Below the pieces are notes generated by a model. That model ran no database searches and was not told the origin of the DNA. It saw only the letters and a program-made list of their open reading frames with translations. Below are positions 34,823 through 49,385 of a DNA stretch of 64,000 bases, piece by piece. The DNA is from Thermococcus aggregans (GTDB lineage: Archaea > Methanobacteriota_B > Thermococci > Thermococcales > Thermococcaceae): positions 1,302,001-1,366,000 of the forward strand of contig NZ_CP099582.1 in the NCBI RefSeq assembly GCF_024022995.1, in the 5' to 3' direction. Made by a program: the position numbers and the translations under genes. Each line of letters opens with the position of its first letter. The first letter of the stretch is position 1.

Positions 34823-34836
34823 CCTTGCCTTTTCTT

Positions 34837-34953
34837 ATGTACCTTTTCTCAGGGGATTCTCAACTTTTAGCCAATGAAGAGATCCGAGAAAAACTAATGT
34901 CTGCAAAAACTCCAGAAGAAGGCATCTCAATATTAAAAGGAAACAGAAAGTGA
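34837..34953 (+). pseudogene. C-terminal remnant of a PTS EIIA-type gene
   Basis: A 38-codon frame without ribosome-binding site. Its product contains QLLANEEIREKLMSAKTPEE, which lines up with LLQNKEFQKRLKHAKTPQQ near the end of the EIIA encoded at 36.7 kb, on the other strand. This is the last two helices of a fructose/Ntr-type EIIA; the phospho-histidine domain part is missing. It lies in the gap between nac and the end of the enzyme I gene. Confidence 0.55.
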
Positions 34954-34954
34954 A

Positions 34955-36661
34955 CTAAAAAGGCAACTCAACGCCTAGCTTTTTTCTAAAAAAGGCTCTT
35001 GCTTTTTCTCTTACTTCTTCACCATTATCTGAATTTAATGCCTCCTTAGCTAATTGGAAAGCTTCCTCATATGAAATACTTTTTACTATCCACTTTACCA
35101 ATGGGATTCTTGTTGGACTAACACTAAGTTCATTTATCCCAAGCCCAACTAGGATTGGGACTGCAAGGGGATTACTTGCCAGTTCCCCGCAAACGTCAAC
35201 TTCCACACCTGCTTTTTGAGCCTTATTAGAAATTTCTGAAATTGCTCTTAACACTGCTGGATGCATATCATCGTATAAATAAGAGACATTTTCATTTGTC
35301 CTATCTGTAGCAAAAATGTATTGGGTTAAGTCATTTGTCCCAATGCTGATGAAGTCAACTTCCTTTACAATTTTCTCGATCATAAAAACTACAGAAGGCA
35401 CCTCTGCCATGATACCGAGTTTTATATTTGCTGAATTGTCTTCAGAAAGCTCTTTGAGTATCTCTTTCAGCTTAGTTATCTCTTCCAATCTGCTTATCAT
35501 TGGAGCCATGATCCTTATATTGCCACCAGTCTCTTTGGAAGCCATTAGAATTGCTTTTACTTGTTCCTCTAAGATCTCTGGATGTTTAAGTAGATACCTT
35601 ATCCCTCTAACTCCGAGGAATGGATTATCCTCCTTGGGAAACTGCAAATAGGGCACTTCCTTATCTCCACCCACATCGAGAAGTCTAATAGTCAGGGGCT
35701 TGTTTCCAAGCTTTTTCACAAATTTCGTAAAGAGGCTAGCAAGCTCTTCCATAGATGGAGGTGTTGCTCGGTTTATGTAGTAAAATTCCAATCTAAAAAG
35801 ACCAACTCCATCACAGCCGTTTTTTACTGCAACATTTAGATCATCTTCACTTCCAACATTTGCGGTAACTAATATTTTTCTGCCATCTTTAGTAGACACC
35901 ACCTCATCTCCTATGCCCTTAAACTTCTCCTTAAGAACCTCAAAGGACTCTTTTTTCTTCAGATATTCCCCAATAGTCTTTTCATCCGGATTAACGATTA
36001 CTTCCCCCAAGAATCCATCAACTATAATCTTATCCCCATCCCTAACAGTTTGTGTTATGCCCGGAACTCCCAAAACTGTAGGAATTTCGAGGGCTCGTGC
36101 AATTATTGCAGCATGAGATGTGTAACTTCCTTTTTCTGCCACAATTCCACGTACACCCATTTTTGCATAGATCAAGACCTGAGATGGATAAAGGTCAGGA
36201 AGTATTACTATAGCATTAGCATTGTTTCCAATTTTTTTAGGTTCATATCCGGATAAGCTCATTAGGAGTATGTTTTTTATATCTTCTAAATCTTCAGCTC
36301 TACTCTGTATTAAAGCTGATTCTGAGGATTTTAAAAGCTCCACGTATTTTTTAGTAGCTAAGCTTATTGCATTAACTACACTTTCCCCCTGTTTGACAAG
36401 TTCGAAAGCCTCATCCACGATCCCTTCAACCATGAGTTTGTGAGCATTAACAATACCTGCAATCTCTTTCTGTGAGTTATCTTCCCCTATGAGGGTATCC
36501 AATAGTTGGATTGTTTTCTCCTTCGCAAGTTGAAGAACTTTTTTAGGGTCTTTCTCTTGAATATTTTCTATTTCATTAGCCTTTGGGACTATAACTGTGG
36601 CTTTCCCAAATGCAATTCCCCATGAAGCACCTACACCTTTTAATCGAAGAGGTTCTTTCAT
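34955..36661 (-). CDS. ptsI: PTS enzyme I (phosphoenolpyruvate-protein phosphotransferase)
   Basis: A 568-aa enzyme that takes phosphate from PEP and gives it to HPr. Residues 1-145 form the HPr-binding helical domain; the phospho-histidine is H183 in GSYTSHAAIIARA; the PEP-binding barrel shows RLLDVGGDKEVPYL, MAEVPSVVFMIE, SIGTNDLTQYIFA and the cysteine loop DVCGELASNPLAVPILVGLG. All active-site blocks are intact, which separates it from PEP synthase, the usual archaeal relative. ATG 36661 has GGAGGGGGAT upstream. It is the last gene of the PTS operon, 2 nt after the EIIA gene. Confidence 0.95.
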   Translation of the reverse strand: MKEPLRLKGVGASWGIAFGKATVIVPKANEIENIQEKDPKKVLQLAKEKTIQLLDTLIGEDNSQKEIAGIVNAHKLMVEGIVDEAFELVKQGESVVNAISLATKKYVELLKSSESALIQSRAEDLEDIKNILLMSLSGYEPKKIGNNANAIVILPDLYPSQVLIYAKMGVRGIVAEKGSYTSHAAIIARALEIPTVLGVPGITQTVRDGDKIIVDGFLGEVIVNPDEKTIGEYLKKKESFEVLKEKFKGIGDEVVSTKDGRKILVTANVGSEDDLNVAVKNGCDGVGLFRLEFYYINRATPPSMEELASLFTKFVKKLGNKPLTIRLLDVGGDKEVPYLQFPKEDNPFLGVRGIRYLLKHPEILEEQVKAILMASKETGGNIRIMAPMISRLEEITKLKEILKELSEDNSANIKLGIMAEVPSVVFMIEKIVKEVDFISIGTNDLTQYIFATDRTNENVSYLYDDMHPAVLRAISEISNKAQKAGVEVDVCGELASNPLAVPILVGLGINELSVSPTRIPLVKWIVKSISYEEAFQLAKEALNSDNGEEVREKARAFFRKKLGVELPF

Positions 36662-36663
36662 AT

Positions 36664-37140
36664 TTAATCCCCCTCCTCCTGTATAACAAACTCTTTGAAG
36701 ATTGAAACAACCTGTTGAGGCGTTTTTGCATGTTTAAGCCGTTTTTGGAATTCTTTGTTTTGAAGCAACATTCCAAGCTCTTTTAAAAGCTGAATATGGG
36801 CCGAATTAGTTGGTGCTGAGAAGCCAATTATAATTTTCACGGGGTCGTTAGGAGAATCAAAATCAACTGGAACACGAAGAATGACTACAGACAACCCAAA
36901 ATCAAAAGCCCCATCTTCGGGTCTAGAGTGGGGCAACGCTATTCCAGGAGCAATAACAGCATAAGGGCCTAATCGATTTGTTGTTTTAATCATTCCCTCA
37001 ATGTATTTTTTTGAAACTTTTCTTGCCTTGTACAATAGGGAACCACTGATCCTCACAGCTTCTTTCCAGTTATTGACCTCCACATTTGTTAAAACACAGG
37101 TAGTATCCATTTTTCTGACAATATTTGGAAGTATCTCCAT
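36664..37140 (-). CDS. PTS EIIA, fructose/nitrogen-type domain
   Basis: A 158-aa phosphocarrier of the PTS_EIIA_2 fold. The phospho-histidine is H71 in APGIALPHSRPEDGA, followed by the family block VKIIIGFSAPTNSAHIQLLKE. This type pairs with fructose or mannitol EIIB, or works in regulation (EIIA-Ntr). No fructose-type EIIB or EIIC is present here, and the transporter is mannose-type with its own EIIA, so this protein may be a regulatory output of the phosphorelay. AAGGTGATC precedes ATG 37140. The AAA+ gene ends 5 nt upstream. Confidence 0.9.
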   Translation of the reverse strand: MEILPNIVRKMDTTCVLTNVEVNNWKEAVRISGSLLYKARKVSKKYIEGMIKTTNRLGPYAVIAPGIALPHSRPEDGAFDFGLSVVILRVPVDFDSPNDPVKIIIGFSAPTNSAHIQLLKELGMLLQNKEFQKRLKHAKTPQQVVSIFKEFVIQEEGD

Positions 37141-37145
37141 TAAGA

Positions 37146-38438
37146 TCACCTTCTCTGTTGAATAGTTATTTGAAGTATCTCCGGAATTTCTTTAGGGTCG
37201 AATTTCCTATGAAGCCTCTCAGAAAGCACCATTTCGACAGTTTTTAGTATTATGTGGGAGTTCTCTGTTAAGTGGAATACAAGAGTACGTCCTTTCCCGC
37301 GCCCTAGACCTTTCTCCCTTGATGTTATTAGTCCAATACTCTCTATTTTGGGAGTTATATAATGCATTACATGTCTCATACTGCGGGGTCTCCATCCTAG
37401 TTCTTCACACACTAGTTTGTATGTTTGGTAAACTTCTCCAGTTACAGGAAGAATCTTATTTTCCTCCAAAAAGGCAATAGACCATAGAATGACCAACTGG
37501 TGATTAGTCAAAGAATTTATTGTAGTGTGCAATATGTTACGTTCTACGCTTTTCATGGCTTCATTAATAATCTCCTTCGTAAGTTTTTCAGAGGTTCTCA
37601 GAGCAGCTTCCGTTAGGATTTTAAATCCCCATCTCAGGTCTTTCTCATTTTGCTTTATCAATTCGACCAAATACCTGATAGATTCGTCATCAAAACTCCC
37701 GGGTAGGAGTGCTTTTTCTGCCCTATCTCTAAGTATCTCAAACAATTCTTCACTGTTATATTCTCTGAAATACAAAGTCCGAGGTATAAATTTTGCTATC
37801 GTGGCATGTTCAATTCTTTCCAGTATGTTGGCCTTATTGGATATCATCACAATCAAAGGCCCTTCTTTGTCTATAACCTCATCTAATCTCGACATCCTAT
37901 AGATTAAAGCATTCATGGGGTCTTCCTTATCTTTATATGTCTTTTTGAGCTTGTCTATTTCATCAAAAACAAAAATAGGTCTTTCTTCACTATTTTTTAA
38001 ATAAGTAACAAGAGCGTCAATGGCTTCTCCGATCCCCAATCCCCGTTCCGGGAAATTTATACCCAAATTATGCAAAAGTGTTATCAATGTTTGATAATAT
38101 GTTCTATCTTTGCAATTTATGTATAGTATCTTTGAATTGATATCGTTTTCTTTTACAAATTCTGTATACGTCTTTATGACAAGCTTTATTGCATGAGTTT
38201 TTCCAGTACTCGGAGGCCCATGAATTAATAGGTGGCCTGGATGGATTCCTCTTGCATATCTACCAAAATGTCTCGCTATTTCAGTTACTTCATTCTCTCT
38301 AAAAAGGAGATATTCTGGAACATAGCTCTCGGTAAGAACACTGGGATTTTTTAGTATGTTGTTGCTTTGGAACTCTTTACGAATTATCTCTTTGAGATTT
38401 ATTTTCGTATTAACCACCCATATATACTTGGTTATCAT
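37146..38438 (-). CDS. Orc1/Cdc6-like AAA+ ATPase within the PTS locus
   Basis: A 430-aa protein with Walker A HGPPSTGKT near residue 92, Walker B IFVFDEIDKL near 155, sensor 1 VMISNKANI, sensor 2 region RWGFKILTEAA, and a C-terminal winged-helix region (VYQTYKLVCEELGWRPRSMRH...IGLITSREKGLGRG). This is the Orc1/Cdc6 architecture. It is diverged, and it sits between sugar genes with no origin-like repeats beside it. A transcriptional role for the PTS operon is a plausible inference, since Cdc6-like proteins bind DNA through the winged helix; a replication role, or derivation from a mobile element, is the alternative. The start may be the ATG at 38438 or GTG at 38417 (see the dyad at 38424). 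Confidence 0.85.
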   Translation of the reverse strand: MITKYIWVVNTKINLKEIIRKEFQSNNILKNPSVLTESYVPEYLLFRENEVTEIARHFGRYARGIHPGHLLIHGPPSTGKTHAIKLVIKTYTEFVKENDINSKILYINCKDRTYYQTLITLLHNLGINFPERGLGIGEAIDALVTYLKNSEERPIFVFDEIDKLKKTYKDKEDPMNALIYRMSRLDEVIDKEGPLIVMISNKANILERIEHATIAKFIPRTLYFREYNSEELFEILRDRAEKALLPGSFDDESIRYLVELIKQNEKDLRWGFKILTEAALRTSEKLTKEIINEAMKSVERNILHTTINSLTNHQLVILWSIAFLEENKILPVTGEVYQTYKLVCEELGWRPRSMRHVMHYITPKIESIGLITSREKGLGRGKGRTLVFHLTENSHIILKTVEMVLSERLHRKFDPKEIPEILQITIQQRR

Positions 38439-38456
38439 AAGTATTTAAGATTTATC
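38424..38456 (-). promoter_or_regulatory. Internal promoter and dyad over the AAA+ gene start
   Basis: ATACTT (38424-38429) and AAGTAT (38439-38444) form an inverted repeat with a 9-nt spacer that covers the ATG at 38438. A TATA-like ATAAATCTTAAAT (minus strand, 38444-38456) lies next to it. If used, transcription would begin near 38422 and the first in-frame start would be GTG 38417. This could be an autoregulatory operator of the AAA+ protein. Confidence 0.4.
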
Positions 38457-38469
38457 CATATCGCAAACA

Positions 38470-39702
38470 TCACTTTGTCAAGAGCTTCTCTATAGTTCCT
38501 TTTATTCTTTGGTATTCTGAGGGATCTACGATTGAAACGGCTACTTCATAGGTGTCCTCCTTGAGAGGTTCAAAGGGTATATAAGCAGTGTACCCATTTG
38601 CATATCCAACAAACATCGTATACTTGTAGGGGGAAATTCGCTTAGCTGTGATCTGGTATTCAACGAACATTTCCGCTGGTGTAAATAATGCAACAAAATT
38701 TTCTCCTATAGTAAGCTTTGCAATATTGAAGTTTATCACATTGATTTTTTTGAGATACTCTGAAATCTTTTTTAAAATCTGAACTCCTAAGAGGTTGTTT
38801 TCAATTATCCTGCGCTCTTGGGAGGAAATGTTACTTTGATTTAGCTTTGCAAGGAGCTCTGCTTCAAAATCTTCGATTTTTGTCCTGCTTGGTGGTTGTT
38901 TGGGTTTAACTTTAAGTTTTTTCCACGTTAAATCCACATCACCCGTAAGTTTCTCACAACTATTGAGCTTGTTTTTCACTTGAGAAAAGAAAAGCTTCGC
39001 TAGTCTATTCACTTCTTCATATTTCTGGGATTTTCTAGTAAATCTTGTACTTACGTTTCCAGCAGCTCCATTGAGAAAGAGCGCTACATTGAACTCTTTT
39101 TCAAAAAGTCTTGAAATTGCACCAGCTAAATCACCAGAAATCTTATTGTTTGAGTAAGGAAGAACTGTTGGATGGCAAGAGAAGTTCAAAGCTATGGTTT
39201 TCTTTTTTGAATCAAATAAGAATACAGACTCTTTGTCAACTATTCCATTTGGATCAATCCTGTTTGATGAGACCCCTTCAATTATTGCTTTTCCCGCAAA
39301 AAGCGATGTGTTGTCAAAGTTTATTTTCTTTAATGCCTCAGCTAGACGTGTAATTATAAATTCTTGGTAATTTTTTATTATTTCTCTTTCGTCCTCTATT
39401 CCCCACAAATTTGTTAAAAAACTTAAAGATGACTCCGGAGCTGAATGAGTGTGCGTTGCAGTTACTATCACGTTGCTTTCTGGAATCCCAAGTTCTTTGC
39501 TTACTTTCAGTGCTATCTCTTCTCGAAGTTTTTCATCGACAATAAGTAGATCTAGAGCAATTATAACTACAGAATCAATATATAATATCCTCCCGTAGAT
39601 CCTATCTAAGATGTCACTACTTCTTCCAGTTCTAAGTGCATACCCTGCTAGAGGCATTGGGTTTTCAGGCGTTATATCAACTTTTGCCCAACCAATCTTC
39701 AT
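38470..39702 (-). CDS. Neutral/alkaline ceramidase-fold amidase, cytoplasmic
   Basis: A 410-aa member of the neutral ceramidase family. Signatures are WAKVDITPENPMPLAGYA at the start, the zinc-histidine motif ATHTHSAPE near residue 84, FSCHPTVLP near 175 and the nucleophile block LNGAAGNVSTRF near 210. Ceramidases cleave the N-acyl bond of ceramide; there is no signal peptide and archaea lack ceramide. Within an amino-sugar operon an N-deacylase of a sugar derivative is a reasonable guess. GGTGAG precedes ATG 39702; nagA is 26 nt upstream. Confidence 0.8.
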   Translation of the reverse strand: MKIGWAKVDITPENPMPLAGYALRTGRSSDILDRIYGRILYIDSVVIIALDLLIVDEKLREEIALKVSKELGIPESNVIVTATHTHSAPESSLSFLTNLWGIEDEREIIKNYQEFIITRLAEALKKINFDNTSLFAGKAIIEGVSSNRIDPNGIVDKESVFLFDSKKKTIALNFSCHPTVLPYSNNKISGDLAGAISRLFEKEFNVALFLNGAAGNVSTRFTRKSQKYEEVNRLAKLFFSQVKNKLNSCEKLTGDVDLTWKKLKVKPKQPPSRTKIEDFEAELLAKLNQSNISSQERRIIENNLLGVQILKKISEYLKKINVINFNIAKLTIGENFVALFTPAEMFVEYQITAKRISPYKYTMFVGYANGYTAYIPFEPLKEDTYEVAVSIVDPSEYQRIKGTIEKLLTK

Positions 39703-39728
39703 TATTTCTCACCAGGTATGCTTCTTGT

Positions 39729-40898
39729 TCAACTCAACATATTTTTTCCATTTATGTATACTGAGTCCACATTCAGATCCTCGTCCAAAATAACTAGATC
39801 AGCTGAATACCCTGGTAATATCGCTCCACTTTTGTGAAGTTCTATAGCTCTTGCCGGATTATATGTCATAGCTCTAATGGCGTCTTTTAGAGAAAATCCT
39901 GTTTGAATCAAGTTTCTCAAGGCTTTGTCCATAGTTAGGGTACTCCCCGCGAGTGTGCCATCCTCTAAGCGACAAATTCCATCTTTGACTATTACTTTCA
40001 ACCCTCCTAGAGAATACTCTCCATCAGGTAAATCGGTTGCAATAATCGAATCAGTAATTACGACAACCCTTTCAATTCCTGTGTGGTTTACAGTAAATTT
40101 GATAATCTCTGGGGAGAGGTGGATTAAGTCTGTTATTAATTCCACATACACCTGCGGGCTTTCTAGTGCCGCCGCAATTACTCCAGGATCCCTGTGATTT
40201 ATGGGTCTCATGGCATTATATAAATGACTCGCTCTGTTTGCCCCCGCATATATTGCGGCTTTTGCCTCTTCATACGTAGCATTTGTATGCCCTAAAGACA
40301 CAGAGACTCCTAGCCTTCTTGCGTACTGGATGAACTCTAGTGCTCCTTCCAATTCTGGAGCAATTGTTATAGTTTTTATGTTGCCTTCAGAAGCCTTCCA
40401 GTATTCTTTAAGCTCTTGGATGTTGGGAAGACGAATAAACTCTGGATTTTGGGCTCCTTTCTTTTCCTTATTTATATAAGGTCCTTCTAAATGTAATCCC
40501 CCAATCTTTGCTCCTGTTAGTTGATCCTTTTGATAACTGACTGCATTTTTAACTCCCTTAGCCGCCGTCAAAAGGACTTCATGAGAAGCTGTCACAGTAG
40601 TGGGAAGAAAGTATACCACCCCGTGCGTTAAATACTTCTCGCTCATTTTGATTAGAGTTTCTTCAACTTCTTGCTCCGATCCTCCCATAGCACTGTATGT
40701 GACATCAAATCCCCCTATCCCATGAGTATGCACGTCAATGAATCCGGGAGCAACTATCTTACCCTCTAAGTTCTCTCCGCCAGAAGTCCTCCCTTCGTAA
40801 ACCTTTTTTATTATTCCGTTTTCAATCTCTACAGTTCCGGGATAAATTTCTTCAAAGGGAGTTATTACTCTTGCATTGGTTAAAATTACTTTCGACAT
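39729..40898 (-). CDS. nagA: N-acetylglucosamine-6-phosphate deacetylase
   Basis: A 389-aa amidohydrolase. IDVHTHGIGGFDVTYSA carries the first HxH, LHLEGPYINKEKKGAQNP the substrate/metal glutamate, VSLGHTNATYEEA and ASHLYNAMRPINHRDPG the further ligands and substrate loop, and VVITDSIIATDLPDG the catalytic aspartate. The residue after KKGA is Q where bacterial NagA usually has H. It removes acetate from GlcNAc-6-phosphate, the product expected of the PTS permease. GGGGGTGAG precedes the ATG; it follows the SIS gene by 11 nt. Confidence 0.93.
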   Translation of the reverse strand: MSKVILTNARVITPFEEIYPGTVEIENGIIKKVYEGRTSGGENLEGKIVAPGFIDVHTHGIGGFDVTYSAMGGSEQEVEETLIKMSEKYLTHGVVYFLPTTVTASHEVLLTAAKGVKNAVSYQKDQLTGAKIGGLHLEGPYINKEKKGAQNPEFIRLPNIQELKEYWKASEGNIKTITIAPELEGALEFIQYARRLGVSVSLGHTNATYEEAKAAIYAGANRASHLYNAMRPINHRDPGVIAAALESPQVYVELITDLIHLSPEIIKFTVNHTGIERVVVITDSIIATDLPDGEYSLGGLKVIVKDGICRLEDGTLAGSTLTMDKALRNLIQTGFSLKDAIRAMTYNPARAIELHKSGAILPGYSADLVILDEDLNVDSVYINGKNMLS

Positions 40899-40909
40899 AT
40901 TCTCACCCC

Positions 40910-41647
40910 CTATAGATATTTTAAACGAGCCCTATATCTCTCAATTACTTTAGAATTGTGCTCTTTGGCGCCAGGTAGGTGTGCACTTAGGAATACAGGA
41001 GGCTCAATTCCTTTCTCAACTAGTTCTTTAATTGCTAAAGCGACGATTGATTGGGCTATAAATGCCCCAGTAATAGTGGATACCGGGAAAATTTTCATCT
41101 TGAATCCCGGGATCTGTAATATGGCGTCTCCTCTTGGAACTTTATTGTCTATAACAACATCAGCTACTTCAAAGAGTCGTTTGTTATACTTGTTTCTAGG
41201 AGCTAAGCTTCTAGAATATTCCACAGATGTTATTGCAATAACTGGGCATCCAATAGATTTTGCTTTTATAGCGGTCTCTACGGGAAACACGTTAACCCCA
41301 GAAGTAGATACTACCAGTACTGTATCATCTTTTTGGACACCCATCGCTTTCAACACTATTTCTGCATATCCTTCTACATGTTCCATTTCTGTTGACTTAA
41401 AGGCTCCGTGGTAAACGTTTATGTCAGTATCCATTATTGGGTTTACAGGAACTAGTCCTCCAGCTCTATAGGAGAGCTCTTCACCAATTATTGCCGAGTG
41501 GCCAGCCCCAATTACATGCAATATCCCGCCCTTTTCTAGAGACTTTGCTAGTATTTTGGCTGCGTTTTCAATATTTTCTTTCTCTTCCTCTTTCACCCTT
41601 TCCAATAGGGAGTTAACAACCGAATAGGCTTCATCCAAAAGTTCCAT
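40910..41647 (-). CDS. SIS-domain sugar isomerase-like protein
   Basis: A 245-aa single SIS domain protein of the SIS_2 type. Phosphosugar-binding elements are ILHVIGAGHSAIIGEEL and the serine-rich loop VLVVSTSGVNVFPVE. A helical lid follows (TGAFIAQSIVALAIKELVEK). Homologs in bacterial sugar-PTS operons are annotated only as sugar isomerase domain proteins. It may handle an aminosugar phosphate or act as a sensor. GGAGGT precedes ATG 41647. Confidence 0.82.
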   Translation of the reverse strand: MELLDEAYSVVNSLLERVKEEEKENIENAAKILAKSLEKGGILHVIGAGHSAIIGEELSYRAGGLVPVNPIMDTDINVYHGAFKSTEMEHVEGYAEIVLKAMGVQKDDTVLVVSTSGVNVFPVETAIKAKSIGCPVIAITSVEYSRSLAPRNKYNKRLFEVADVVIDNKVPRGDAILQIPGFKMKIFPVSTITGAFIAQSIVALAIKELVEKGIEPPVFLSAHLPGAKEHNSKVIERYRARLKYL

Positions 41648-41666
41648 TTTTCATACCTCCTGTTAG

Positions 41667-43349
41667 TTATTTCTCAACCATTTTTACCAAACCTCGGGGG
41701 AAATCTATTGGGGTGTTGTTATACACCCCAAGCCAGTAAGAGAGGAGTTGAACAAACAGTACGGCGTGGAAGGGATATAGCATTGTGTCGGAATAATCAA
41801 TATTTACAAGAGAAATGTTTTCAGTGTTTTTGGCCTTTTTCTGAACCTCTTGAGTTGCCCCAATTACAACAAAATGGCCTAGATTTTCATGGAATTTTTC
41901 AAACTTCTGAAGGAATCGTTTCTTTGCAAATTCTTCGCATGGTTGTATTACTATATTATACATATCCTCAGAAAGGGCTGCGCTGGGGCCGTGAAGGTAC
42001 TCTTCAAGCTCAATGGGTTCAGCATGGGAGTACGCTGCTTCTTTTAGCTTGAGAGCACCTTCGACAGCTATGGGATATGTCATTCCAGCAGATATTATGT
42101 ACCCGCCTCTCAAGTTAGAGAGGTATTTTGCAATTGTTTTTGCTGAGGTTTCATACTGGGGAAGTATATCAGGTAATTTGTTCGTGAAATCTGAAAAGTT
42201 CTGTAATCGCTTTTCCATTTCATTGTCATTAATCAAGCCAAGCTTTTTCCTGGAAGTTAGAGCTAGCAGATAGAGAACTCCTAAAGTCCCTGTAAAGCTT
42301 TTTGTAGCAGGAATTGCTGCTTCATATCCAGCCAATATTGGAATGATAACATCTGAATACTTTGTTACCTTACCCAAGGACGGATTATTTGTAATCGATA
42401 TTACATTTGCCCCTCCTTTTTTGGATTCCTTTACAACTTCTAGAACTCCCCACGTGTTACCAGATTGTGTTATTGCTACTACTGTGTCGTCTTTATCAAG
42501 GGATGAAAGCTTGTGTAGTTTAAATTCAAATGCAGGAATCGCAATTATATCAAGTTCTGGGAGGAAATACTGGAGTTCAAGCCCTCCGTTTAGAGAAGAA
42601 CCACTCCCAACTACCCATATTCTTTCAGTATTTCTAATCATTTCCGTTGCCAGCTGTATAGACGGGTAATCTTTAAGGAAGTATGTTCTCTTTAAAACGT
42701 ACGGGGTCTCATAAATTTCCCTTATCATACGGTGTTTAAATTGTCGACTTATTCTCGTTTTTTTCTTGGTTCCTACAAACGTTCGCTTTTGTGACGACCA
42801 AAATGCTAAAGAATTCGGCGGGAGCCTATAAACTTCTTCTGGAGCTAGCTCGTTAATCGTAGTTAAAAAAACACTTTCTCCATTTTGATCAATAAATATG
42901 TCTCTATATGTCGAAAAGGCTATTAAAAATTCTTCTTCCCTTTCTTTAAAGTAACCGACAATTGAGAATGCGCCAGTTTCACGACTTAAAGCATCTTTTA
43001 ACCTTTTGGCAAAGTCATTTTCAGAACCCGTACTTTGGAAAATCTGCCAGAGTTTTTCTGAGAGTTCTTTAAGGGGCGTCTTTGGAAGTCCTTCAATAGC
43101 AGTTATTGCAGTACTTTCTTCTTTTCTGATAATAAAACTTGAATTTATCCCAGTTTCATATTTGTTTGTATTCAGTAAAAAATTCGTTCCAGGAGGCATT
43201 TCTTTGAGATTAGTGGATCCAATAGAGATGTAGTTATTTTTGTTCCAAGTGATAAGATCAAACTTCGGCATTAATCTAAGGACGTGTTGTTCAAGTATAT
43301 TTCTTTGTTGTTCCGAGCAATCTATGCATAGAACAATTGCTCCCAGCAT
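41667..43349 (-). CDS. GlmS-like protein lacking the glutaminase cysteine; likely glucosamine-6-phosphate deaminase/isomerase
   Basis: A 560-aa protein with the layout of glucosamine-6-phosphate synthase: an N-terminal Ntn-type region (about 1-215) and two SIS domains (VVGSGSSLNGGLELQYFLP and VVAITQSGNTWGVLEVVKE; then GGYIISAGMTYPIAVEGALK and HAEPIELEEYLHGP). GlmS starts MCGI with the catalytic Cys after Met; here it is MLGA, so glutamine hydrolysis should be impossible. Thermococcales are known to use a GlmS-isomerase-like protein as GlcN-6-P deaminase, which suits a catabolic role: GlcN-6-P to fructose-6-P and ammonia. GGAGGAATTGAA precedes ATG 43349. Confidence 0.83.
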   Translation of the reverse strand: MLGAIVLCIDCSEQQRNILEQHVLRLMPKFDLITWNKNNYISIGSTNLKEMPPGTNFLLNTNKYETGINSSFIIRKEESTAITAIEGLPKTPLKELSEKLWQIFQSTGSENDFAKRLKDALSRETGAFSIVGYFKEREEEFLIAFSTYRDIFIDQNGESVFLTTINELAPEEVYRLPPNSLAFWSSQKRTFVGTKKKTRISRQFKHRMIREIYETPYVLKRTYFLKDYPSIQLATEMIRNTERIWVVGSGSSLNGGLELQYFLPELDIIAIPAFEFKLHKLSSLDKDDTVVAITQSGNTWGVLEVVKESKKGGANVISITNNPSLGKVTKYSDVIIPILAGYEAAIPATKSFTGTLGVLYLLALTSRKKLGLINDNEMEKRLQNFSDFTNKLPDILPQYETSAKTIAKYLSNLRGGYIISAGMTYPIAVEGALKLKEAAYSHAEPIELEEYLHGPSAALSEDMYNIVIQPCEEFAKKRFLQKFEKFHENLGHFVVIGATQEVQKKAKNTENISLVNIDYSDTMLYPFHAVLFVQLLSYWLGVYNNTPIDFPRGLVKMVEK

Positions 43350-43402
43350 TTCAATTCCTCCAGATAATTAATATAAGGGAGTGTAATGAAAGAGAGTAAT
43401 AA

Positions 43403-43903
43403 TTATGTTAGACCTTTCCTCTTTAGGAGCTCATAGAAATCCTGAGGTTTTTCGTCTGGAAGCATTTGGTAAACTAACCGATATCCTAGGTCCACAAGCT
43501 TTTTAAATTCTTCAACGTCTTTCTCGTCAACTGAAAAGTTCTTTGTAACAACTATTTTTCCCTCTTTCCACCCTGATTGTCCGACGTTAATCCAGTCTAC
43601 ATCATTTATACGTACATTTTCGAGAACTTTTCTACATGACTCTGGCGTGGCAAAGATTATCATTATGTTCTTCGAAGCATCATAGTTTTTGTTTTTGAGT
43701 TTTTCTATTGCCTCTTGAATTGTAATAATCTCTACTTTCTTTCCTGGTGGGGCCATTGCGAGTTGAATTTTTTTCAAAAATTCATTTGTTGCCAATTTGT
43801 CATCTACTAACCAGATCTCTTGTATTCCATAAGCACTTACCCAACCAACCGTTACTTGTCCATGAATATACCTATCGTCTATTCTTATTAGTTTTATAGG
43901 CAT
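43403..43903 (-). CDS. PTS EIIB, mannose family
   Basis: A 166-aa phosphotransferase of the PTSIIB_sorb/mannose family. The phospho-histidine is H14 in RIDDRYIHGQVTVGW, followed by IWLVDDKLATNEF and the TPES loop region IIFATPESCRKVLE. It passes phosphate from EIIA to the sugar bound in EIIC-EIID. Unlike E. coli ManX, EIIA and EIIB are separate proteins here. GGGGGGAT precedes the ATG. Confidence 0.94.
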   Translation of the reverse strand: MPIKLIRIDDRYIHGQVTVGWVSAYGIQEIWLVDDKLATNEFLKKIQLAMAPPGKKVEIITIQEAIEKLKNKNYDASKNIMIIFATPESCRKVLENVRINDVDWINVGQSGWKEGKIVVTKNFSVDEKDVEEFKKLVDLGYRLVYQMLPDEKPQDFYELLKRKGLT

Positions 43904-43914
43904 TCATATCCCCC

Positions 43915-44187
43915 CTAATTATCCTCTTGTGGTAATACCTCCTCCACAAGATGTACAAGTTCTTTTAGTGCATCACTTTCATCTTCCCCACTTACTCTTA
44001 ATATAATTTCGTCTCCATATTCAATACCCAACGCCAAAACTTGAAGAATGTTTTTTGCATTGGCTGAGTTGTTCCCTTTAAGTATGGTAATCTCCGACTT
44101 AAATTTTCTAGCAGTTTCGACAAACATTGCTGCTGGTCTCGCATGCAATCCAGTTTTATTTTTTATTTTAAGTTTAGCTTCAAGCAT
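43915..44187 (-). CDS. ptsH: HPr phosphocarrier protein
   Basis: A 90-aa HPr with H15 in NKTGLHARPAAMFVE, the residue phosphorylated by enzyme I. The position equivalent to regulatory Ser46 is N46 (NSANAKNILQVLALG), so HPr-kinase control of the Firmicute kind is not possible. GAGGGATG precedes ATG 44187. The flanking EIIA and EIIB genes are 10-11 nt away. Confidence 0.96.
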   Translation of the reverse strand: MLEAKLKIKNKTGLHARPAAMFVETARKFKSEITILKGNNSANAKNILQVLALGIEYGDEIILRVSGEDESDALKELVHLVEEVLPQEDN

Positions 44188-44197
44188 AGTTCATCCC

Positions 44198-44599
44198 TCA
44201 CTCAGAAAACCTTTCTGAAAGCACTACAATTGAGCCCTTTCCTTGAACTGCAATCTCTCTAGCAAGAGTTTTAACGTCCTTTTCATTAAGATCAATCAAT
44301 GCTTGAAGGACCATTGGTAAATTTACACCTGAAACAACCTCGTACTTCTTATTAGAAGCTAAAACAACTTCAGCAATAACCCTTGAAGGAGTACCCCCAA
44401 GGATATCTGCAAAAATAAGTGCTTCTTCGGTTGCTTGTAGTGTGTCTTCTAGTTTTTGTTTTATTTTCTCTGCAGTATCTTGGGGATAGAGCTCTATTGC
44501 AACTATATTTTCTGCAACTTTTCCCAAAAGCATTTTTGCACTTTCCTTAAGTGCTGAGGGGAAAGGCCCATGTCCCATTATTATTATCCTCTTGTTCAT
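44198..44599 (-). CDS. PTS EIIA, mannose family
   Basis: A 133-aa protein of the EIIA-man fold with the phospho-histidine H10 in IIIMGHGPFPSALKES and the family block ALIFADILGGTPSRV, then GVNLPMVLQALI. It takes phosphate from HPr and gives it to EIIB. AGAGGTGAAAAT precedes ATG 44599. A 97-nt gap with a TATA-like element separates it from the permease gene upstream. Confidence 0.95.
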   Translation of the reverse strand: MNKRIIIMGHGPFPSALKESAKMLLGKVAENIVAIELYPQDTAEKIKQKLEDTLQATEEALIFADILGGTPSRVIAEVVLASNKKYEVVSGVNLPMVLQALIDLNEKDVKTLAREIAVQGKGSIVVLSERFSE

Positions 44600-44667
44600 A
44601 TTTTCACCTCTCTTGTTTTTCTTATTTTTTCTTTTCTTATTTTCAGACTAACCCAATATCAAAGAGA

Positions 44668-44680
44668 ATTATAAAAGATA
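44668..44680 (-). promoter_or_regulatory. Possible internal promoter before EIIA
   Basis: Minus strand ATCTTTTATAATTC lies in the only long gap of the early operon (44600-44696), about 70 nt before the EIIA start. It could raise expression of the soluble phosphocarriers relative to the permease. Confidence 0.4.
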
Positions 44681-44696
44681 AAGAGACTTAAAAAGA

Positions 44697-46406
44697 CTAC
44701 ACACTCAAAAAGCCTACGAGACCAAGTACGAAACCAACAACGAAGATTATTACTAAAGCTTTTCCTGGAGTAACACCCTTTCTGTAAAGTTGATAAGTTC
44801 CAAGTAATGTCGCAAGTGGTAGAAGCCTTGGAAGTATCATGTCAATTGCTTCTTGCAACTTAAATGCTTCTCCGCTTTGGAATGTTATGGTAACGGGAGT
44901 ATGAATGTTTATATAAGTGACTCCAAGCGCTCCGATTATGCCTATTGCAAGCATTGCTCCAATCTCTCTTATGACTTCAAACTGACCACTTTGAAGAATT
45001 CCAACTACTCTTTCACCATACTTGTATCCCATGTTAAGAAGCTTCCACGTAACTGGGACTATCAGTCCAAACCAGAGAATTACTGCAAGAATTGGTCCAA
45101 GTGAGCTTCCGTTGAGTGCCAAGGATGCTCCTAAACCAAATGCTATCGGTCTCCATGTAAACCAGAATAATCCATCTCCAAGACCAGCTAATGGTCCCAT
45201 CAGCATTGTTTTAATAGATCTTATTGTGTCTATATCTGCTCCCTTTTCTTCAAGAGAAGCATCAAGTCCAACAACGAATGGTATCATCGCTGGATTAGTA
45301 TTGAAGAATTCATTGTGCATTTTCATCCATTCAACAAGTTCTTCCTTTGTTTTTCTCAGTTTCTTTTCTATACCTTTCATAATATTAGCATAAGCTTGTC
45401 CCTGCATTCTTTCGTAGTTCCATGCCCACTGGCTCATGAAGGCAATTTTTAAGTATGTTTTCAAAAGATCCTTCTTGGAAAGAATAGACTTACTGGTATC
45501 TACATTTTCTTCACCTACAGATTCAAATACGGATTTAACAGCATCGGCCTTAAGTGCGAGAGCTAGTGCGATAATCATTAGTGCAATTCCAAGAATTGGC
45601 ATATTTAGATATGCAGCTAGAATGTAACCAAAGATAAACCAAGGTATCATTGACCTGTCGAACATAAGTTTCATTAGGTATGCAAGACCAATAGCTGGCA
45701 TCATTGCTCCAGCAACGCCAAGTGCGTCCATTACCTTTGCAACTGTAGCATTTTGCACAAAAGATCTTATTGTTTCAACTGCTCCTTCCGAAGCTCCCAA
45801 AATTCCAAACAATAAGATAGGAATTGCTTTTGAAAGAGCCCACTGAAATGTTCCAAGTGTTACTATAAGTTGAAGTCGATCTACATTTCCTTGTTCTATT
45901 ACCTTATCCGCTAAGTGGGCATACGGGGTACATCCTGTTCTTGCTAGCAAGACTTCTAAATACATCGAAAGGATACCGATTGGAACTGCAAATGCTATAA
46001 GAGATGAAAGCTGAGATGGATCTACTGAGGTATAACCAAGAATCTTTGCGAAAAATACTGCAACAACTGTAGCAACAGTAGCGTCTGGGGCAGCTGCACC
46101 CCCTATTGGGTACATACCCAAATATACTAGTTGAAGCAAAGCTGATAAAACTAGAGCTGTTTTTGGAATTCCAACAATTATTCCTGTAAGTGCACCAATG
46201 ACAAGAGGCTCTCCTATTCCAATTGGCCTGAAACCTAAGAACTCAAAGACTGCTATCATAACAAGAATTGTTGTTGCAAGTACCTGGCCAAATGTGATAG
46301 TAGCACTTCCTCCACCTGCCGCTTTCACCGCTGGAGACATTAAGAGGGCAAAAAACACTATCAGTCCTATCAAAATTGCCCTTTCTTTACCGTTTTCTCG
46401 TTTCAT
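44697..46406 (-). CDS. PTS permease, fused mannose-family EIIC and EIID
   Basis: A 569-aa integral membrane protein. After a hydrophobic start that looks like a signal-anchor (LIGLIVFFALLMSPAVKAA), residues 30-290 are EIIC (FLGFRPIGIGEPLVIGALTG, then GGAAAPDATVATVVAVFFA) and residues 305-569 are EIID (KIAFMSQWAWNYERMQGQAY, MKMHNEFFNTNPAMIPFVVG, GPLAGLGDGLFWFTWRP). In bacteria these are normally two genes; here they are one continuous frame. It forms the sugar channel and, with EIIB, phosphorylates the incoming sugar. GAGGGGGTAATT precedes the ATG. Confidence 0.94.
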   Translation of the reverse strand: MKRENGKERAILIGLIVFFALLMSPAVKAAGGGSATITFGQVLATTILVMIAVFEFLGFRPIGIGEPLVIGALTGIIVGIPKTALVLSALLQLVYLGMYPIGGAAAPDATVATVVAVFFAKILGYTSVDPSQLSSLIAFAVPIGILSMYLEVLLARTGCTPYAHLADKVIEQGNVDRLQLIVTLGTFQWALSKAIPILLFGILGASEGAVETIRSFVQNATVAKVMDALGVAGAMMPAIGLAYLMKLMFDRSMIPWFIFGYILAAYLNMPILGIALMIIALALALKADAVKSVFESVGEENVDTSKSILSKKDLLKTYLKIAFMSQWAWNYERMQGQAYANIMKGIEKKLRKTKEELVEWMKMHNEFFNTNPAMIPFVVGLDASLEEKGADIDTIRSIKTMLMGPLAGLGDGLFWFTWRPIAFGLGASLALNGSSLGPILAVILWFGLIVPVTWKLLNMGYKYGERVVGILQSGQFEVIREIGAMLAIGIIGALGVTYINIHTPVTITFQSGEAFKLQEAIDMILPRLLPLATLLGTYQLYRKGVTPGKALVIIFVVGFVLGLVGFLSV

Positions 46407-46413
46407 AATTACC

Positions 46414-46470
46414 CCCTCTAGTAGTTTTTAACCAAGACATATCAAACAGTAGTCAGCCGAGTAGAGGCTT
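46414..46470 (-). promoter_or_regulatory. PTS operon leader with a possible Shine-Dalgarno sequestering structure
   Basis: In the minus-strand mRNA, CCTCTA (46467-46462) can pair with TAGAGG (46420-46415), which is the Shine-Dalgarno of the permease gene. The same 5' segment can instead fold as AGCC-N7-GGCT (46469-46455). The two pairings exclude each other. Confidence 0.35.
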
Positions 46471-46494
46471 GCAAGAAATAATTATGGCGCTTTC

Positions 46495-46506
46495 TTTAAA
46501 TATTTT
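46495..46506 (-). promoter_or_regulatory. Main promoter of the PTS operon
   Basis: Minus strand AAATATTTAAAG is a strong TATA box. Transcription should begin near 46470, giving a leader of about 65 nt before the permease ATG. No Thermococcales glycolytic motif (TATCAC-N5-GTGATA) is seen nearby. Confidence 0.6.
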
Positions 46507-47060
46507 TCGGTTTTAAGATTTTGGATAGCACTATAGCAAATTTTGAGGCATTATCGGGGATTTTCATAAAATATGAGACATGGTTATCATTAGTAACTAA
46601 TGCGCTTCAATAATGAACATTGAACAAACAAATACGATAGGGTATAAGAATTATTAAACACAACGCCTTCTTCATTCAACATAACTGGTTCTCCAAATCG
46701 AATACATATGATAACCTAGTCCCTCTAGGTTATGAGTATTTTCATAGTTTTCATCAGCATCAATAATTTCAACATGTTTAAGAATCAGTAAATCAGAAAG
46801 AGTTGGTGACCTTGAGATACACAGAAAAGACTACCCGATTAACCTTTTTTAGCCCCCACAGTCTGCCAATTGGCTCTAAGATATTTCAGCATAATCTGAC
46901 AAAGAATTTTTAAGGAGATAAAGCACCGGCCTTTACATACATTGAATTAAATACCCTGAGTCTTAGCATTACTTTATAATTTGGTCAGAAGAACCTTTCA
47001 GTTGCTTCCATTATTCAAGTAACTGTTCTCACTACTTGTCTTCGCAGTATGAGTTATTTG
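46507..47060. other. Gene-poor stretch between the PTS promoter and the next gene
   Basis: I see no full gene. The only coding-like trace is on the minus strand at 46672-46830 (separate entry). The rest is AT-rich without repeats, tRNA or C/D box elements that I could recognise. It marks the right border of the PTS locus. Confidence 0.6.
46672..46830 (-). pseudogene. Possible degraded gene fragment
   Basis: A 52-codon frame between stops, without start codon or ribosome-binding site, with a protein-like composition (SPTLSDLLILKHVEIIDADE, then GLGYHMYSIWRTSYVE). I recognise no family. It may be the end of a lost gene. Confidence 0.3.
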
Positions 47061-47068
47061 TGCAAAAG

Positions 47069-47136
47069 GTTTTTATATTACGTTTGCATATTGTATGGTG
47101 AGCATCTCTACTTGGGGCAAATGTAGAGTTGAATAA
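47069..47136 (+). promoter_or_regulatory. Promoter and long structured leader of the 47.2-kb gene
   Basis: AGGTTTTTATATTACG (47068-47083) is a TATA box, putting the transcript start near 47105 or slightly before and leaving over 100 nt of leader. The leader holds an inverted repeat CTCTAC (47106-47111) with GTAGAG (47123-47128), and a 13-codon ORF (47095-47136). Confidence 0.45.
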
Positions 47137-47216
47137 CAATTGAGCATCGCAAAACTTTGCATTTGTTGCTAGGGATAAAGAATATTGGATAATAGAATTT
47201 GGATGAGGGATAGCGA

Positions 47217-48137
47217 ATGAACAGACGAAAAGCTATCTTTATTGTTATTTTACTCTTGGCCTTTTATTTTCTTCCCAAGGGGGTAATTATTGAGACAGAC
47301 GAACCTACCGGTGTTAGCTTTGATGAAGACAAATCTCTTCCAAAGTACTGCCCCTTCACAATCAAGACTAAATCCCTGTTTGTCGAGTCCGGATTGAATA
47401 ACGTTACGTTCCACCTCCTTAAAGACAACACTGTATTGGTTAATTACACGCTCAAAGGCGTTAAAGGCTCATACCTCTGTCTTCCGGATGGGATTCTGCT
47501 GTATGCATACTCTCCGGGCGATGACCTTAGTGATACCCCGATGGTGTTCTTGGATTACAATTTAAGTGAAAAGTGGAGAAAAAAGTTTGAGGGTCTTGTT
47601 CTACCCAAACATTATGAGGACAATTCTTTACTTCTCGTAAAGCGCGGAAGTTTTGAACTAAGCATAAAGTCGTGCATATATAAGATAAACACCGCCACCG
47701 GGAATTTGACGTATAAATTCTGTCCTGACATCTCAAGGGGCTCTAGAATCTCGGATATTAAAATCCTTGGAGATAGGTACTATTTCGTGGCAACTTGGGT
47801 TGATGCCAGAATGTTGTGGGTTAAGACCAACGGAGATTTGTACCTTGTTAGGGGTTATGAAGCCAGAAAAGCCCGCGTTGCGAGCATCGATAGCAGTGCT
47901 CTAGGTGCGGGCTTCTGGGTTGATGCCAATGACAAATATGTCGCTGTTGCTTACTTCCTTGCGAATGAAGTGGGGGACTGGAAGAATGGACTGTGTGTCT
48001 TTACGAGTGGCCATTTAATCAAGATGGCCTGTAAAAAGCTCGATAAAACTCCCAGAAACGTAAGAATTGAAGGTAGAACGATCTATGTAAAATTCAGGGA
48101 TGGCACCGTTAAGACTTACAAAATCATAGCACCTTAA
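47217..48137 (+). CDS. Membrane-anchored extracellular protein, propeller-like, unknown function
   Basis: A 306-aa protein. Residues 5-22 form a signal/anchor helix (AIFIVILLLAFYFLPKGV); the rest is beta-rich with four spaced cysteines and repeated short strands of the kind seen in beta-propellers (NNVTFHLLKDNTVLVNYTLK, RISDIKILGDRYYFVATWVD). Several N-x-S/T sites are compatible with surface glycosylation. The next gene has a similar layout. GAGGGATAGCG precedes the ATG. No function can be assigned. Confidence 0.75.
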   Translation: MNRRKAIFIVILLLAFYFLPKGVIIETDEPTGVSFDEDKSLPKYCPFTIKTKSLFVESGLNNVTFHLLKDNTVLVNYTLKGVKGSYLCLPDGILLYAYSPGDDLSDTPMVFLDYNLSEKWRKKFEGLVLPKHYEDNSLLLVKRGSFELSIKSCIYKINTATGNLTYKFCPDISRGSRISDIKILGDRYYFVATWVDARMLWVKTNGDLYLVRGYEARKARVASIDSSALGAGFWVDANDKYVAVAYFLANEVGDWKNGLCVFTSGHLIKMACKKLDKTPRNVRIEGRTIYVKFRDGTVKTYKIIAP

Positions 48138-48164
48138 GGAGTAAAAGTCGAGAGGTGAAAAGAA

Positions 48165-49302
48165 GTGAAGCCCTCAAAGACGCTTTTGGTTGCTGTTTCT
48201 TTACTTCTAATTTTGGCACTTTTTATTTCGCATGAATATCGAAGCTACAGCTGGAGTTACGAGAATGCTTCTCTGATCGGCGTCTGGAATGGGAAGGTTG
48301 CAGTTCTTAAGGACAACACCTTGTTAATCCTCAACGTAACAAATGGCCAAGTTCTTAAAGAATTTCCCAATACAAGCAAAGCATTTCTCGTAGGGAATAC
48401 GATCTCAGCGGTAAGCAGCTTTAGGCTCTTAAACATTAACTTAGAGGACTTTACAACTGCTGAGCTTAATATTCCCGAAGGGATTGATTCGGCTGAGCTG
48501 GTGTTCGGTGTCAGCTTTGGAAATTTCTCACTCTATTCCACTATTCATCCCGTCAGAGGGAAGTATATTTTTGATGTTATTGAATATCATGTCTGCACCC
48601 AGAACTGCTCGGTTTATTCCTTTAGAACACCTCCGGGCTCTTATCCGATGGTTTATACATTCCCGAAGGGATACATTTTAACATTTGAAACTAATGAGGT
48701 CTTTGCCAAGGGCTCTGCAGTGGTTCTCGACAAAAATGGGAGTTTTATGTGGAATTTGACCACAAATTATGCAATCAGCGACTTTGAATATTCCAATGAT
48801 ACCCTGTTCTTTTCAACCGGAGGCACAGAGCCCGGAGGAACCACCATCGCCGGCGGCGATATTTATGCGTTTTCTCTCAACGGTCCCCTTAAGTGGCACA
48901 TTGACCTCGGCAGGTATGATGGAAAGTTCTATGATTGGGCTGTCGCCGGAATGAAGGCTCGTGATGATTTATACGCTATAGGCTACACCGGCAGAGTCTA
49001 TGTTATTGATTTTAATGGAACGCTCAAGAGGATTACAGCTTCGCCAGTCTCCATGGGGCTGAAGACCCCATCTTTAATAAAAGGAGTTAAGGCTGCAAAA
49101 AACGATTTAATGGCCTTTGCCTATACTGACATAAAGAGATCCGGCTTGTTTCGGGAAGCCAAAGGCATCTGTGTCTGCGATTTCAAGGGGTTTAAGTGCT
49201 GGAAAACAAAAAAAACGGTTGGTAAAGATATTGGTCTGGGATAAATGGGTAATTGGAGAAGGAACTAAAGGAATTTACGTATGGAGAGTGAGCATTGGCT
49301 AA
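48165..49302 (+). pseudogene. Second propeller-like surface protein, frameshifted in an A8 run
   Basis: GTG 48165 after GAGGTGAAAAGAA opens a protein with a signal/anchor helix (LLVAVSLLLILALFI) and PQQ-like beta-propeller blades (LIGVWNGKVAVLKDNTLLIL, DIYAFSLNGPLKWHIDLGRY, YAIGYTGRVYVIDFNGTLKR). The frame stops at 49244, but one base over, the sequence continues as LVKILVWDKWVIGEGTKGI and YVWRVSIG to a stop at 49302, exactly what a last propeller blade looks like. The shift maps to the AAAAAAAA run near 49209-49216. An intact protein would be about 378 aa. The visible truncated form (359 aa) might still fold poorly or partly. Confidence 0.7.
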
Positions 49303-49385
49303 TGAAGTTAAAGCCTCCCGGATTTTTGCCATTGCTGATATTCGCTTTTTATTTTTTCACGAGGTATTGATCATGAAGCCAAAAG

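Follow-up and report, generated by a model that had tools for sequence, protein, structure and literature searches.

The 64-kb stretch of the Thermococcus aggregans genome analysed here (hereafter the window, meaning the stretch at its full length) contains eleven minus-strand open reading frames (ORFs) at positions 34955-46406, with intergenic gaps of −4 to 97 nt, whose products include the components of a sugar phosphotransferase system (PTS), amino-sugar enzymes, and an Orc1/Cdc6-like ATPase (Table 1). An earlier note on this DNA had described an eleven-gene PTS amino-sugar locus, and the description holds: all the ORFs are present and the family assignments, obtained with Pfam and NCBIfam profiles, have strong E-values. 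Its upper coordinate must be corrected, since 46506 lies inside the B recognition element (BRE)/TATA box of the operon promoter and the coding region stops at 46406. The mannose-family set is complete, with PF03610, PF03830, PF03609, and PF03613 all exceeding their cut-offs; the family scores of the PTS proteins are far under the AgaE/AgaW equivalog cut-offs. The phospho-histidines proposed in the note were found for enzyme I (EI) (H183, which sits in TSHAAI, positions checked in the ORF), HPr (H15), EIIA-man (H10), and EIIB (H14), but for the second EIIA (hereafter EIIA-2) the listed ORF places it at H74 instead of H71. The EIIA-2 ORF overlaps the stop codon of the Orc1-like gene by 4 nt. On the basis of these assignments, the locus is predicted to encode a complete phosphoenolpyruvate (PEP)-dependent mannose-family PTS, which would import and phosphorylate an N-acylated amino sugar.

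Table 1. Features of the PTS locus and of its surroundings, in window coordinates.
Feature	Position	Strand	Evidence or remark
EIIC-EIID fused permease (EIICD), mannose/sorbose/galactosamine family, 569 aa	44697-46406	-	Pfam EII-Sor 4e-46 and EIID-AGA 1.5e-76; NCBIfam EIID-AGA 6e-52
EIIA-man, phospho-His10	44198-44599	-	Pfam EIIA-man 1e-21
HPr, phospho-His15; position 46 is Asn, not serine	43915-44187	-	Pfam PTS-HPr 1.8e-30
EIIB-sorbose type, phospho-His14	43403-43903	-	Pfam PTSIIB_sorb 1e-40
GlmS-like protein	41667-43349	-	NCBIfam PRK00331 7e-57, C-terminal half only
SIS-domain sugar isomerase-like protein, PRK02947 family	40910-41647	-	NCBIfam 2.5e-90
NagA, N-acetylglucosamine-6-phosphate deacetylase	39729-40898	-	TIGR00221 1.7e-99, above cut-off
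Neutral-ceramidase-fold protein	38470-39702	-	Pfam Ceramidase_alk 3.7e-15; human ceramidase 4wgk 1e-6
Orc1/Cdc6-like AAA+ winged-helix protein	37146-38438	-	TIGR02928 1.4e-67; Cdc6_C winged helix
EIIA-2 (PF00359), phospho-His74	36664-37149	-	Pfam PTS_EIIA_2 5e-32
Enzyme I (EI), phospho-His183	34955-36661	-	TIGR01417 2e-143
Distal inverted box GAATACATATGATAACCTAGTCCCTCTA	46700-46727	+	106 bp from proximal box; best match in window, matrix built without host genome
Proximal box AGTTACTAATGATAACCATGTCTCATAT	46571-46598	-	86 bp upstream of BRE/TATA; second-best match in 64-kb window, other-species matrix
BRE/TATA element CCGAAAAATATTTA of operon promoter	46497-46510	-	Consensus match, predicted
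Weaker box ATACTTATGATAAC	38431-38444	-	Just after conserved TATA-like CTTAAATA at Orc1-like gene start
Acquired insert between NAC gene and hflX	34827-49380		Empty site in 5 relatives; low GC3 (GC content at third codon positions) of PTS genes

As the earlier note had proposed, a path from an N-acylhexosamine to fructose-6-phosphate can be drawn inside the locus, NagA and the GlmS-like isomerase half both being present. NagA scored 333 bits against TIGR00221 (cut-off 226) and presents the metal-binding motifs HTHG, HLEGP, and LGH. The GlmS-like protein, whose score falls under the GlmS cut-off, retains the isomerase half of GlmS, and its glutaminase-type N-terminal domain is without the catalytic Cys. 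Indeed, when the window protein was aligned with three homologues, the N-terminus read MLGA, MLGT, MFGN, or MIGT, with the Cys missing in 4/4, and residues E444, H453 (HGP loop), and K556 of the isomerase half were invariant in 4/4; we take these to be the counterparts of the catalytic Glu, the HGP loop, and the C-terminal Lys of GlmS. The low-confidence structure model of the protein still resembles full-length GlmS/GFAT. Read with general knowledge of GlmS, the missing N-terminal Cys and the intact isomerase half fit a deaminase/isomerase, and we predict that the protein is a hexosamine-6-phosphate deaminase/isomerase that frees ammonia, not a glutamine-dependent synthase. Along this path, the N-acylhexosamine would be converted to its 6-phosphate, then to hexosamine-6-phosphate by NagA, and finally, by deamination and isomerisation, to fructose-6-phosphate by the GlmS-like protein; the substrate would be an N-acylated amino sugar. 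The ceramidase-fold protein, whose match is limited to the N-terminal ~200 residues and does not extend to the full catalytic and C-terminal domains of neutral ceramidase, is probably an N-acyl amidase.

The Orc1/Cdc6-like ATPase had been listed in the note as one gene among the others. Its membership of the locus stands, but comparative evidence makes it, together with EIIA-2 and a set of promoter boxes, the most unusual part. The protein scored 228 bits against TIGR02928 (cut-off 181), carries the Pfam Cdc6 lid and Cdc6_C winged-helix domains with intact Walker A/B ATPase motifs, and its structure model matches the DNA-bound archaeal Orc1 structures 2qby and 2v1u. It has no Pfam match to PRD domains or to the sigma54 activator AAA+ domain. 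It is 29% identical to the other, canonical Orc1 of the host and falls in a separate clade; a role as host replication initiator was ruled out, the protein not being orthologous to the canonical Orc1. A single-protein genome scan with it found no relative, and viral contigs returned Orc1 relatives at 27-29% identity only.

A core formed by the Orc1-like protein, EIIA-2, EI, HPr, the GlmS-like protein, the SIS protein, and NagA is conserved in three other Thermococcales (G087, G079, and G093), whose Orc1-like proteins are 69-70% identical to that of the window. Within this core, a known DNA-binding domain is present in the Orc1-like protein only. The Orc1-like proteins of the four PTS loci form a supported clade (98/99), apart from plasmid and canonical Orc1 proteins, and they have in common H211, H313, and a C-terminal tail, which are found neither in the orthologue of a Palaeococcus-like genome (G001) nor in the plasmid relatives; these are candidate contact or modification sites.

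The permease, conversely, is exchanged among the loci. In G087 and G079, the two complete related loci, a UlaA-like EIIC of the ascorbate family and a separate EIIB are encoded divergently from the Orc1-like, EIIA-2, and EI genes; a second, convergent EIIA-2 is followed by HPr, the GlmS-like gene, the SIS gene, and nagA. The G093 contig (L058, Thermococcus sp. JdFR-02) spans from the Orc1-like gene to the second EIIA-2, ending on both sides. The EIIA_2 family counts 11 copies in 7/94 genomes, every non-fructose copy belonging to Orc1-PTS loci, and EIIA-2 lies directly after the Orc1-like gene in 4/4 loci. The convergent transport EIIAs form their own clade (support 100/100), outside of which falls the window EIIA-2; it groups with the Orc1-linked copies, which form no supported clade of their own. 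The mannose-type permease, then, brings its own EIIA, and the copy missing from the window is the presumed transport EIIA-2, the Orc1-linked one being kept. That the permease was swapped yet the Orc1-like gene and its adjacent EIIA-2 were retained points to regulation rather than transport.

A contig (L059, JAGHBG010000188.1) 96% identical to the window locus at the DNA level has HPr directly before the GlmS-like gene and nagA directly before the Orc1-like gene. Because it lacks the EIIB between HPr and the GlmS-like gene and the ceramidase gene within a near-identical core, the permease and the ceramidase appear to be movable parts of the locus. The contig is filed under a Thermotogaceae metagenome-assembled genome, where it is probably mis-binned, given its identity to a Thermococcus locus; no EIIC-GAT was found in that assembly.

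The upstream regions of the core operons have in common a 28-bp box (TTACAAATGATAAC...GTCTCTC, consensus TTACAAATGATAACnnnGTCTCTC). The exact 13-mer TTACAAATGATAA (equal to TTACAWATGATAA) has two occurrences each in G087 and G079, always in the PTS locus, and only seven in the other 92 genomes; the degenerate pattern WTACNWATGATAAY has three occurrences in the host genome, all within the PTS operon. When the window was scanned with a matrix built from the other species, the two boxes upstream of EIICD scored 26.5 and 21.1 bits, the one at the start of the Orc1-like gene 9.8, and the next match 6.1. The start of the proximal box is 90 bp upstream of the BRE/TATA element at the EIIC and HPr promoters of both G087 and G079 (four promoters) and, as counted from the sequence, at the G093 EIIC promoter, which lies at the contig end; the distance is 86 bp at the host EIICD. 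The second, inverted box lies 91-94 bp farther upstream in the relatives versus 106 in the host; it is degenerate in G087 and was not called at the G079 HPr promoter. Between species, the similarity of the DNA separating the promoter elements has fallen close to background; the exception, within G087, is the recent duplication of the EIIC and HPr promoters. The box was rejected as a canonical thermococcal origin box (best score of 4.8 bits at the canonical orc1 locus of the host, 4.1 kb scanned), and scanning for sigma-70-type promoters yielded nothing useful, unsurprisingly in an archaeal genome. In the host, a perfect stem of 9 bp (ATAACCTAG/CTAGGTTAT, window 46711-46733) overlaps the distal box.

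The same inverted pair is present outside the PTS loci. Plasmid pTBMP1 of T. barophilus MP (G086), which has no annotated PTS gene, encodes an Orc1-like protein (WP_013747412) 38% identical to that of the window, and its two best box matches, scoring 23.7 and 21.6 bits, are inverted relative to each other at a spacing of 92 bp. This pair lies at a distance of 422 bp from the nearest start codon, has no BRE/TATA element at 90 bp, and presumably has a replication role; the GC skew of the plasmid showed no clear origin at the boxes. In G001, one of the higher box matches led to a locus (L204, 9990-14031) in which four boxes of 21-25 nt, arranged symmetrically two plus two, lie between an MCM gene and a truncated Orc1 gene whose product is 54% identical to the pTBMP1 Orc1. 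This layout appears origin-like and is probably a decayed integrated replicon. With matrices from the G001 origin-type boxes and pTBMP1, a PTS promoter box ranked first in 4/4 loci; the matrix from the G001 boxes only placed the PTS boxes at ranks 1-2 in G079 and at ranks 2 and 4 in G087. These comparisons suggest that the PTS box derives from the origin recognition box of a plasmid-type Orc1 family, along a chain that is strong between the PTS loci and pTBMP1 and moderate as far as G001. A T. profundus plasmid (L108, 24890-25208) carries another type of candidate origin box upstream of its Orc1-like gene, namely the perfect inverted repeat of 23 bp GTTCCACTTCGCAACATACCCCC.

We consider it likely that the locus is an acquired amino-sugar PTS built on a conserved core with an exchanged permease, in which a plasmid-type Orc1 initiator was exapted as a regulator coupled to EIIA-2. 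The comparison of the loci shows conservation of the core, swapping of the permease, retention of the Orc1-linked EIIA, a fixed box geometry, and the same box pair beside a plasmid Orc1-like gene. With a chance that we put just short of even, a plasmid Orc1/Cdc6 initiator and its inverted origin boxes became a sugar-responsive transcription switch through the acquisition of a PTS EIIA as a dedicated partner. In such a switch, the Orc1-like protein would bind inverted sites resembling origin recognition boxes ~90 bp upstream of the core promoters, and the phosphorylation of EIIA-2 via EI and HPr would report sugar influx and set the activity of the adjacent Orc1-like protein. During influx, the sugar would drain phosphate from EI and HPr, EIIA-2 would become dephosphorylated, and the Orc1-like protein at the boxes would be altered. 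We infer DNA binding by the Orc1-like protein, a signal or interaction from EIIA-2 to it, and activation rather than repression, the last being suggested because the boxes lie upstream. Autoregulation of the Orc1-like gene is possible: autorepression is suggested because the weak box follows closely on the TATA-like element. Should the switch be real, replication-initiator machinery would have been reused for carbon sensing, offering a direct way to test how Orc1 paralogues turn into transcription factors, and an archaeal phosphorelay would exist in which the PTS phosphorylation state controls an Orc1-type ATPase, a first candidate for a PTS-controlled regulator of archaeal type. PTS transport is rare in archaea, and the switch is testable, close Thermococcus relatives being cultivable.

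Several observations weigh against this interpretation. The Orc1-PTS core occurs in four species only, two of them close (G087 and G093); the promoters of the PTS loci share ancestry, and the G087 EIIC and HPr promoters are recent duplicates. For an activator in an archaeon, 90 bp is a long way upstream, and the link between the Orc1-like protein and the promoter box consists of co-occurrence and geometry only. G001 has an orthologue (50% identity) and neither a PTS nor a strong box pair genome-wide; in its 2.2 Mb, overlaps included, no single match exceeds 14.1 bits with either of the two matrices, and a pair is absent. The matrix from the G001 boxes only puts the window boxes at ranks 16 and 19, and the link to G001 runs via pTBMP1. 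Finally, the related T. profundus plasmid is without the box; given this and the G001 case, the protein-box link is not universal.

The nearest non-PTS relatives of the Orc1-like protein and the box pairs are found on plasmid-like elements, and the PTS loci occupy different places in different genomes. Both facts would suit an ordinary acquired amino-sugar PTS in which the Orc1-like gene is a plasmid passenger and the boxes are plasmid origins, either vestigial or active to this day. We regard this as unlikely: the Orc1-like gene and EIIA-2 are adjacent in four loci although the permeases change, each locus has boxes at two separate promoters, with the distance to the BRE/TATA element fixed at 90 bp, the operon is without integrase, mcm, or any other plasmid gene, and the ATPase motifs and winged helix of the Orc1-like protein are conserved. 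To a similar degree, we doubt that the EIIA-2 beside the Orc1-like gene serves transport, as a second donor for the permease, or supplies the fructose PTS, with no signal to the Orc1-like protein. Members of the EIIA_2 family are mostly transport parts, and the best NCBIfam matches of EIIA-2 are ascorbate/mannitol-type EIIAs; however, the mannose EIIB already has an EIIA-man within the locus, the host's fructose PTS possesses an intact EIIA, EI, and HPr of its own, and the UlaA-type loci retain a pair of EIIAs, the convergent member of which is missing in the window. Even less probable is that another thermococcal regulator binds the box and that the proximity to Orc1-like genes is coincidental. 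Although the box core is partly palindromic, as with dimeric repressors, the only known DNA-binding domain of the core belongs to the Orc1-like protein, and the same pair, equally spaced, is present on pTBMP1, which shares with the PTS loci an Orc1-like gene and no annotated PTS genes.

Among known systems, the bacterial mannose/N-acetylgalactosamine PTS (AgaF, AgaV/W, AgaE, NagA/AgaA, and a deaminase) resembles the locus in having the same EIIA, EIIB, EIIC, and EIID families, NagA, and a deaminase in one operon. The locus differs in that EIIC and EIID are fused, its operon also includes EI and HPr, and the candidate regulator is Orc1-like and not of the DeoR/GntR or LevR type. Bacterial mannose PTS operons are controlled from upstream by LevR/ManR/MptR, AAA+ activators with PRDs that act as sigma54 enhancer-binding proteins (PMC2941500, PMC8262876). 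Like these systems, the locus has an AAA+ ATPase linked to a mannose PTS, predicted sites ~90 bp upstream, and PTS phosphorylation as the proposed signal. Its protein, however, has an Orc1/Cdc6 fold and a winged helix with no PRD or sigma54-interaction domain, the EIIA is separate, and the promoter is of the archaeal BRE/TATA type. By analogy, the locus would work like LevR-type control without being a member of it. A precedent for an Orc1/Cdc6 paralogue as a transcription regulator is Saccharolobus Orc1-2 (PMC9738581), a non-initiator that regulates the DNA-damage response via its AAA+ and winged-helix domains; it belongs to another phylum, differs in signal and in target genes, and has no PTS link. 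The pTBMP1 system has the same 28-bp inverted box pair but is plasmid-borne and without PTS. The haloarchaeal PTS (Haloarcula, Haloferax) is, like the locus, a complete archaeal PTS, but of the fructose class, and the Thermococcales fructose PTS is a separate locus (L049-L052) from the mannose-type one.

Regarding the origin of the locus, the comparison with related genomes indicates that it is a laterally acquired insert, because the site is empty in relatives and GC3 is low. In five same-genus relatives, hflX comes after the NAC gene, some of them having a single short gene in between, and the GC3 of the PTS genes is 0.26-0.35 versus 0.47-0.56 in the flanking genes. The insert also contains two plus-strand genes (47217-49244) with no Pfam match, whose proteins begin with a hydrophobic segment. 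The mannose-type EIIB was found in 1/115 genomes of the phylum, and the mannose-type permease is unique to this genome among the Thermococcales searched. EIICD homologues are present at ~32-35% identity in a plasmid collection, and separate EIID/EIIC at 34-36% in 1/103 Thermotogota genomes; nothing closer than ~32-36% identity, as a permease donor, was found in these two sets.

A complete mannose-family amino-sugar PTS in Thermococcales is sustained, with the correction that PTS-type EI also occurs elsewhere in the order, in 11/94 genomes, in fructose, dihydroxyacetone (Dha)-kinase, and amino-sugar types (a count judged from identities, neighbourhoods, and E-values, many matches at E ~1e-53 to 1e-61 being PEP-synthase-sized proteins). 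A 2008 survey knew one archaeal PTS only (PMC2405797). Our literature search, to which most subscription papers were closed, did not find PTS in Thermococcales or Orc1/Cdc6 joined with PTS in this way; the papers containing Orc1/Cdc6 and PTS terms are, by title, on haloarchaea or general archaeal genetics.

The host has a separate, complete fructose PTS outside the window (G000:C1:1752000-1758000; L049, 7331-12892), with genes for a DeoR-like regulator, 1-phosphofructokinase, EIIA, EIIBC, HPr, and EI, and similar loci are present in G015, G035, and G076. This system was rejected as an explanation for the second EIIA of the window, since it holds its own EIIA. In several Thermococcales (L053, L054, L055, and L056), DhaK-DhaL-DhaM-like genes for dihydroxyacetone kinase are accompanied by an HPr and an EI of their own, in some cases next to glycerol genes; the Dha-kinase-linked EI and HPr represent a third kind of archaeal PTS use. 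In G076 (L057, 7832-10354), the Dha-type cluster has an EI gene interrupted by the insertion of a pair of transposases.

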